Position numbers and translations under genes: made by a program
Shown here: in pieces, positions 3-14,185 of the stretch
Layout of the letters: every line of letters begins with the position of its first letter
Position numbering within the stretch: position 1 is the first letter of the stretch
From: an uncultured Clostridia bacterium
GTDB taxonomy: Bacteria; Bacillota; Clostridia; Christensenellales; UBA1242
Length of the DNA stretch: 32,560 nt
NCBI GenBank assembly: GCA_947303145.1
Contig: CAMYXB010000003.1
Span: 1-32,560, forward strand
Direction of reading: 5' to 3'
Notes under the pieces: generated by a model
Seen by the model: the letters and a program-made list of their open reading frames with translations, nothing else
What the model was told of the DNA's origin: nothing
The model's database searches: none

Positions 3-259
3 CCCCTTTCCTCACTTACGTTCGTTAGGGGGCCCCGAAATTATGTCACTACGTTCATAATTTCTTATTACGTTGCCTTGACGGCAGCATTTTTTTATAA
101 AAAATGCTATGACCGGTTGGCAACATTTTTGTCTTATCCCCATTCCTCATATTCATTCGTCTGGGGGCAGAAATTATATCACTTCGTTCATAATTTCTTT
201 TATTGCGGTCTAAACAGACTGCGTTTTTTATCAAAAAAAAACACCATGTCTGCTTTACG
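3..259. repeat. Tandem pair of structured ~125-nt repeats (A and B)
   Basis: Unit A (3-124) and unit B (138-259) align along their length, offset by about 134 nt. Both begin with a CCCC..CCTCA segment and a GGGGG run. Both then carry a hairpin made of GAAATTAT(G/A) and CATAATTTC (37-64 and 170-197), and both end in further short hairpins. In A the last hairpins are closed by GTTGCC and GGCAAC (72-124). In B the corresponding stem has a different sequence but still pairs (GCGGTCT with AGACTGC). The ORFs reported here run through these palindromes and are not credible genes. Function is unknown; a decayed dispersed repeat or a structured RNA are both possible. Confidence 0.6.
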
Positions 260-12443: not shown

Positions 12444-13478
12444 ATGAGAAGAAAAAGATTTTTCAGTAGCATAGCATTCGTTCTATCTTTAGTTATGCTG
12501 GCTGTGAGTGGAGCCATGTTCGTCCACTCTGCCCAGCAACAGAGCGCATCGACGTCTCTGTCTGTCACATTCAGTGGCATGAATGTAGACTATACTGTCA
12601 GGGCGTGGTATCAATTAATGGGAACGACTGAGAGAACTCCTCTAAGAGACCCAAGTAATAACAACAATAACACCAATACAACCATCTCATTCGATGCTAC
12701 AGACCCAAGTTCAACCAAGACTTTGGCAGTGGCTGAAAATAATGGGAATATTGCACTTAGTGCCACAGCGACTTATGTGCTATTCACATATGAGTTCACC
12801 AATACTGCAAGCTCAGGTGCTAAAGGCATGCTGGTCAGCCTAGATAATTCCTCATCTTCGGATAACAATATCAGTATAAAATACCTCTCTTCTACAGATG
12901 ACTATACACCAAGCACTGGGCTTGACTCTCAAGCAAGTTCTGTATATGATTCATCAGAGAGCGAATTTGATGAAATATTCATTACTGCTGGACAACATAC
13001 AAAATATTTCTACATCTTAGTCTCTCTGGAAGATCCCACGTTGAATGGCACATACAACAAATCTTCTTCTCCTCTTAGTTGGAGCGTAGAGTGCAGTGAT
13101 GCCGAAACAGAACCCCCTGTGACGTTGTATATAACCGGCACCGGAACAGAGACTGCTCCTTTTATCGTATATGAGGGGAGTGAAGAAAATCAAAAATATT
13201 ATAATAATTCTATAACAGCAGATGAGGAGACTGTATTTGTTTCGAAAGGCTCCACAATAATATTGACCTATGGCCAAGGAGACAATATCTATAATTATGG
13301 GTCTAGTAATTTCATATCAGGAGCTCCACAAAAACCAGATTTTACTCCACGTGCTATCTCAATTGTTTCTGTAAGCGGGGCATTTAGTCATAATGGCGCA
13401 AATTCTGTCGGTTATGCATGTTCATTTATTGCCACTGAATCTAGTTATCAAATTTCATTTTATATTACTAATAATTAA
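12444..13478 (+). CDS. Secreted beta-rich protein, paralogue of the 27537 product
   Basis: The N-terminal signal peptide (RRKRFFSSIAFVLSLVMLAVSGAMFVHSAQQQ) lacks a lipobox. The mature protein opens SLSVTFSGMNVDYTVRAWYQ, matching SFTVSFTALSVDTTVSVKYYQ of the 27537 protein. A second shared block is LFTYEFTNTASSGAKGMLVSLD. Asn/Ser/Thr-rich linkers (SNNNNNTNTTIS) separate strands, and the C-terminal 100 residues are absent from the shorter paralogue. The layout resembles TasA/camelysin-type secreted fibre proteins, but the typical Phe-x-Asp motif after the signal is absent, so I do not assign the family. Expression is probably controlled by the divergent XRE regulator. A GC-rich structured element follows the gene. 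Confidence 0.75.
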   Translation: MRRKRFFSSIAFVLSLVMLAVSGAMFVHSAQQQSASTSLSVTFSGMNVDYTVRAWYQLMGTTERTPLRDPSNNNNNTNTTISFDATDPSSTKTLAVAENNGNIALSATATYVLFTYEFTNTASSGAKGMLVSLDNSSSSDNNISIKYLSSTDDYTPSTGLDSQASSVYDSSESEFDEIFITAGQHTKYFYILVSLEDPTLNGTYNKSSSPLSWSVECSDAETEPPVTLYITGTGTETAPFIVYEGSEENQKYYNNSITADEETVFVSKGSTIILTYGQGDNIYNYGSSNFISGAPQKPDFTPRAISIVSVSGAFSHNGANSVGYACSFIATESSYQISFYITNN

Positions 13479-13503: not shown

Positions 13504-13589
13504 AAGAGATTGCCGCTGGGGCGGAAGCCCCAGAGCACCGCCCACGAACGTGGGTGGCGCAGTAGCCGACAGGCTACCGGCAATCTCTT
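13504..13589. other. GC-rich four-way-junction element (possible structured RNA or repeat)
   Basis: An outer 12-bp stem pairs AAGAGATTGCCG (13504-13515) with CGGCAATCTCTT (13578-13589), all Watson-Crick. It encloses three adjacent hairpins. These are CTGGGGC-GGAA-GCCCCAG with a GNRA loop (13516-13533), a long stem at 13535-13560 with one mismatch and one G-T pair, and GTAGCC-GACA-GGCTAC (13562-13577). Single A residues are the only junction linkers. There is no T-run after it, so it is not a plain terminator. It is much GC-richer than its flanks. It could be a small RNA, an mRNA 3' stabiliser or a miniature repeat. Confidence 0.65.
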
Positions 13590-13601
13590 CCTATTTCCCC
13601 T

Positions 13602-13630
13602 TTGACAAATCTACGCATAAGAGATACAAT
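13602..13630 (+). promoter_or_regulatory. Leaderless promoter of queH
   Basis: TTGACA (13602-13607), a 17-bp spacer and TACAAT (13625-13630) precede the gene. The ATG begins 7 nt after the -10 box, and no Shine-Dalgarno sequence is present. Confidence 0.75.
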
Positions 13631-13636
13631 TAAAGC

Positions 13637-14185
13637 ATGAAAAAGAGACTACTTTTGCACTCGTGCTGTGGGCCATGCTCCACCACTGTTATAAATAGAC
13701 TTAAAGAGGACTATGACGTCACCATTTTTTACTACAACCCCAACATCTATCCCGAGGAAGAATACTCCCATCGCCTTGCCGAGCAGACCAGATATGTGAG
13801 GGAGAGCGGAGTCCCTGTCATAGTGATAGACGGCACGTATAGCGACAGCGAGATGTTCCTGTCTAAGTATCAAGGACTGGAGAATGAGAAAGAGGGCGGA
13901 GCGAGGTGCAATGTGTGCTTTGCCTTGAGGCTAGACAAAACAGCCAAAACGGCTAAAGAGGGGAATTTCGACCTATTCACCACTACACTCACCGTCAGCC
14001 CGCACAAGAATGCGAAGTTAATCAATGAAATAGGCGAGGCAATGAGTGCAAAATATGGCGTAGAATATCTGCCTAGTGATTTCAAAAAGCAAGACGGCTA
14101 TCTAAATAGCATCAAAATATCCAAGGAATACAATCTCTACCGCCAGAACTATTGTGGCTGCAAATATTCGATATATAAAAATTGA
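13637..14185 (+). CDS. queH: Epoxyqueuosine reductase QueH
   Basis: QueH reduces epoxyqueuosine to queuosine at tRNA position 34, the last step of queuosine synthesis, replacing the cobalamin-dependent QueG. The family blocks are complete: LLHSCCGPCSTTVI near the N-terminus, FYYNPNIYPEEEY, ARCNVCFALRL, TTTLTVSPHKN and the C-terminal YRQNYCGCKYS. The cysteines in CCGPC, CNVC and CGC match the iron-sulfur and metal ligands of the family. At 182 aa it is typical. The gene stands alone with its own promoter and terminator, and is predicted to be leaderless. No other queuosine gene is in the window. Confidence 0.95.
   Translation: MKKRLLLHSCCGPCSTTVINRLKEDYDVTIFYYNPNIYPEEEYSHRLAEQTRYVRESGVPVIVIDGTYSDSEMFLSKYQGLENEKEGGARCNVCFALRLDKTAKTAKEGNFDLFTTTLTVSPHKNAKLINEIGEAMSAKYGVEYLPSDFKKQDGYLNSIKISKEYNLYRQNYCGCKYSIYKN

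Follow-up and report, generated by a model that had tools for sequence, protein, structure and literature searches.

The GC-rich fold at positions 13504-13589 of the window (the whole 32,560-nt stretch analysed here, contig C3 in a draft genome of 940,195 bp and 108 contigs) very probably belongs to a non-coding palindromic repeat of approximately 86-100 bp, akin to bacterial MITE and REP sequences, which is specific to this species and of which it is one of several dispersed copies. The presence of copies at unrelated sites, together with the absence of the element from the queH locus of congeners, constitutes the pattern of a dispersed repeat and not that of a conserved, queH-linked RNA. Placing so striking a fold among the repeats, instead of among riboswitch-like RNAs of queH, guards against its annotation as a regulator.

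The preliminary description of this locus had proposed a four-way junction, in which a 12-bp outer stem encloses three hairpins, and both the fold and its coordinates proved right. The parts of the element and its neighbours are arranged as follows (window coordinates):

12444-13478, + strand: upstream gene (344 aa) without a Pfam family, with an N terminus that by eye resembles a signal peptide
13504-13515, + strand: outer stem, 5' arm (AAGAGATTGCCG); it forms the left inverted end
13516-13533, + strand: hairpin 1, 7 bp with a GGAA loop; one C-G pair is replaced by T-A in the C28 copy
13535-13560, + strand: hairpin 2, 2+8 bp with an A.C mismatch (A-T in the C85 copy) and the loop GAAC
13562-13577, + strand: hairpin 3, 6 bp with the loop GACA
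13578-13596, + strand: 3' arm of the outer stem (13578-13589) with its TTCCTATT extension, reverse complement AATAGGAAGAGATTGCCG
13602-13630, + strand: promoter-like site of queH, TTGACA-17-TACAAT, outside the repeat
13637-14185, + strand: queH (epoxyqueuosine reductase), PF02677

The outer stem is uninterrupted, as had been claimed (12 pairs, 13504-13515 with 13578-13589), and the hairpins are indeed joined by single adenines (A 13534 between hairpins 1 and 2, A 13561 between hairpins 2 and 3); hairpin 2 holds a G.U pair besides its A.C mismatch, which corrects the earlier account. Together with its extension, the right arm matches the left side in inverted orientation at 89% over 19 nt. The element does end just before the queH promoter (the promoter-like site starts 12 nt past it), and the stop codon of the upstream gene is found 25 nt on its 5' side. 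The GC-richness first noted by inspection is borne out by a content of 65%, as compared to 31.5% in the 100-bp flanks, the window as a whole having 43%. The minimum free energy of the element is -62.4 kcal/mol (shuffle mean -30.0, sd 3.6, z = -8.96), the lowest of any 86-nt segment on the two strands of the window, and none of 200 dinucleotide shuffles was as stable. As the opposite strand folds almost as well (-60.2 kcal/mol), the shape does not tell which strand would be an RNA.

A blastn search of the own genome with the element recovered four copies at 91-100% identity, three of them complete and the fourth a half copy, and a covariance model of the element returned the same set and nothing further:

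C3:13504-13589: complete, the window copy
C28:670-754: complete, 95% identical to the C3 copy over 85 nt
C85:719-805: complete, 91% identical to the C3 copy over 87 nt
C49:1-55: half copy, 100% identical to the C3 copy over 55 nt, beginning exactly at the contig end

A copy cut off at a contig end is what an assembly broken at a repeat would show. All copies are intergenic and each follows the 3' end of at least one gene; the similarity among them ends at the arms of the element. Their neighbours comprise the secreted-type protein of no known family and queH (C3), a Listeria-Bacteroides-repeat protein and GerAC (C28), tRNA-Ser and genes without a Pfam family (C85), and DAP dehydrogenase (C49). 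Such a scatter over unrelated loci supports the miniature repeat that the preliminary description had listed beside a small structured RNA and a stabiliser of mRNA 3' ends. A chance fold or an assembly artefact, to which the 108-contig state of the draft and the copy at a contig end might point, has a negligible probability: the z score of the fold argues against it, and it is refuted by the three complete copies, which are found inside contigs with different flanks and carry different pairing-preserving substitutions.

Among the genomes searched, the element is restricted to its own species. The covariance model placed it in none of 147 relatives, and an element-only model run with laxer filters placed it in none of 37, its other matches being at chance level; no copy was present in 11 congeners, nor, by blastn, in the remaining 308 family genomes or in the samples of the class and of the order. 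Order-wide blastn picked up only pieces of the element, 19-47 nt long and lacking the four-way fold, and distant blastn against plasmids, phages and E. coli genomes gave no match. Patterns drawn from the fold yielded a similar picture: hairpin 3 with the outer arm had nine matches in GTDB r220, none of them with the rest of the fold, while in viral contigs the outer-stem pattern had 41 matches, none with the three-hairpin core, and neither the hairpin 2 pattern nor the hairpin 3 pattern was matched. In the ten congeners compared, queH is 65-72% identical at the protein level, and the DNA preceding it is AT-rich and devoid of such a fold. Because the gene order around queH differs in congeners, a strict empty site is not demonstrable there.

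These distributions bear directly on whether the element acts as an RNA. The earlier suggestion of a dedicated small structured RNA finds no support, given the several unrelated loci and the queH locus of congeners without the element; of the three options, it is the miniature repeat for which both observations speak. Rfam, searched at gathering and at lax thresholds, held nothing near the gathering score, in agreement with the earlier statement that no recognisable riboswitch is matched (the best lax match, Giardia U1, was rejected, as it scored 24.8 bits where the cut-off is 100). An intrinsic terminator (GC stem followed by a T-run) was discarded, as the T-run is absent, just as had been described, and no terminator-like site was found at the element. 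The proposed check for covariation gave nothing above chance: 1 of 35 pairs is changed on both sides, and 159 of 500 shuffles did as well, in a comparison of low power, since the copies number three and a half and vary very little. This result, read with the same reserve, and the absence from congeners speak against a cis-regulatory or small RNA family. The GNRA (GGAA) loop is real in hairpin 1 of the window copy and unconserved: the C85 copy has AAAA there, and loops in general differ among copies.

It is likewise unlikely that the copies represent a multicopy structured RNA or 3'-UTR element, whose four-way fold would block exonucleases or insulate neighbouring genes at transcript 3' ends. 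The fold is very stable in all three complete copies and the + strand slightly more so in every one of them (+/- strand energies -62.4/-60.2, -61.7/-58.6 and -62.4/-55.9 kcal/mol), which would suit such a role, as would the intergenic placement of all copies 3' of at least one gene; against it stand the lack of a conserved promoter beside the copies and of a T-run, covariation no better than in shuffles, the unconserved loops, the silence of Rfam and the fact that no congener conserves the element. The evidence leaves no case for an RNA that is conserved or specific to queH; it neither requires nor excludes an effect on mRNA, and any stabilisation of 3' ends would be no more than a by-product at single sites.

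As a dispersed palindromic repeat, the element would have spread, or been copied, as DNA. Either a transposase supplied in trans might recognise its inverted ends (AATAGGAAGAGATTGCCG..CGGCAATCTCTTCCTATT), or recombination might exchange them with other hairpin repeats that bear the same arm; the nested hairpins would represent the element folded as a single strand or extruded as a cruciform. In a copy that is located inside a transcript, the fold may shield the 3' end of the mRNA or serve in its processing, which would be a consequence of the element and not the reason for it. Several observations weigh against the repeat reading: a copy number of only about four is low for a REP or MITE family, no empty site was demonstrable, and no target-site duplication or TA ends were recognised by eye in the flanks of the three complete copies, the true borders of which are uncertain because the left end is degenerate in each. 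Furthermore, no cognate transposase was found; the search, which covered the Y1 family (PF01797), returned three IS200-like TnpA copies with their own ends, and these ends were rejected as a source of the element, from which they differ.

A role as a DNA site for recombination or chromosome organisation (an attachment, gyrase or Holliday-junction-binding site, with a cruciform bound by a host protein) is highly improbable. Extrusion of the nested palindromes could give a four-way junction, and the C85 copy folds without any unpaired junction base; set against this, the genes looked at include no integrase or integron-like neighbour, the flanks are unrelated and the occurrence is limited to one species.

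The dispersed repeat is connected to other palindromes of the same genome through its arm. The outer arm, (A)ATAGGAAGAGATTGCC, is also present in GTCATTGCGA..GGCAATCTC hairpin repeats, in which the extended right arm, read on the opposite strand as AATAGGAAGAGATTGCC, recurs; ATAGGAAGAGATT is enriched in the own genome (16 matches versus 1 in the control, at most one mismatch) and is not enriched in congeners. These hairpin repeats share with the element the GAGATTGCC arm and the same flank at C49/C28; unlike the element, they consist of a single short hairpin without the GC-rich three-hairpin core, and their type is widespread (at least 120 stretches of viral contigs). To the right of the C49 half copy, 63 nt of flank match the DNA beside another hairpin repeat (C28:6415-6477) at 92% identity; the match has its boundary at the shared arm and takes in an CTCTACTCG..GTAGAGTTTTTT hairpin, which is also found at a third site, on C50, adjoining another repeat end. 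With both kinds of body beside the same flank of about 60 bp, the two bodies, four-way and simple hairpin, therefore look like alternatives on one shared arm, an arrangement that may be viewed as a mosaic reminiscent of BIMEs. That the folded four-way junction, and not a simple hairpin, is the substrate of a mobilising enzyme, in a class of mobile palindromes spreading by the swapping of bodies between repeats that share the AATAGGAAGAGATTGCC arm, is a speculation that we hold to be decidedly improbable.

Other repeated motifs were recorded alongside. A terminator-like hairpin (CTCTACTCG..TATGGGTAGAGTTTTTT) occurs at three sites (L004 70-103, L094 6415-6450 and L069 818-866), each adjoining the end of a palindromic repeat; dispersed hairpin repeats of the form GAGATTGCCAC..CGCAATGACA are found in the own genome (L012, L013, L017-L020), and the nine-mer GCAATGACA has 16 occurrences versus 0 in the control, about half of its sites looking coding. 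Near the contig end, window positions 30-66 and 163-199 carry two copies (86%) of a 37-nt hairpin (GAAATTATGTCAC..TTCATAATTTCTT), apparently another short palindromic repeat. Beside a tRNA (541-614), positions 260-380 and 404-524 form a 121-nt tandem duplication (74% identity, copies on the - strand) with the invariant blocks CGAGACTGCGATTTTCGGTGACTG and ACAATCTCCGTCTCTAAGT, no Rfam match and modest folding in only one copy. The Lachnospiraceae loci L036, L038, L039, L041 and L042 bear a conserved hairpin (such as GTAGCCGACAGGCTACCGGCAATCGTGTACATACCGTATGG) 3' of a -10-like TATAATA, without an Rfam match at gathering score and unrelated to the element; in L042 it is followed by a small hydrophobic ORF resembling a holin-like type I toxin. 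In L095 (837-1854), two adjacent - strand ORFs have the common ending YYFGEES.QGYL, perhaps a duplicated C-terminal tail.

In comparison with known families, the element shares with the bacterial MITEs (Correia/NEMIS, ERIC, RUP and RPE; reviewed in PMC2229807) a length of about 100 bp, a non-coding, intergenic nature, inverted ends, extensive base-pairing as RNA and dispersal within one species or few. Specifically, it falls below the 200 bp of the MITE definition (about 86 bp), has several dispersed copies (three complete and one half) and possesses terminal inverted repeats (perfect arms of 12 bp, about 19 bp at 89%); it departs from these MITEs in being GC-rich (65%) instead of A+T-rich, in its few copies, and in its three nested hairpins, where MITEs form one long stem-loop. 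No TA ends or target-site duplication were recognised in its flanks, the borders being uncertain, and no parent IS was found in the Y1 family searched. REP, BIME and REPIN sequences mobilised by RAYTs (PMC2817692, PMC3116915, PMC3733652) are likewise extragenic palindromes, species-specific and occurring in mosaic combinations. The element is longer than a REP, has about 4 copies against the usual >100, and carries GTAG inside hairpin 3 instead of an unpaired GTAG/CGTC tag; no RAYT with matching ends was found, the Y1 transposases present being IS200-like, and no repeat arm is located beside the three Y1 genes, whereas a RAYT gene is flanked by inverted repeat copies. The element would work like these families, and because the defining features of neither are all present, we report it as a variant, and not a member, of MITE or REP. 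It is unusual as a repeat in being GC-rich, in its nested four-way architecture and in its confinement to one species of a small-genome lineage. As in REP, BIME and REPIN sequences, one arm is common to different repeat bodies, and the sharing of this arm with another, widespread hairpin repeat offers a small test case for the exchange of parts among palindromic repeats.
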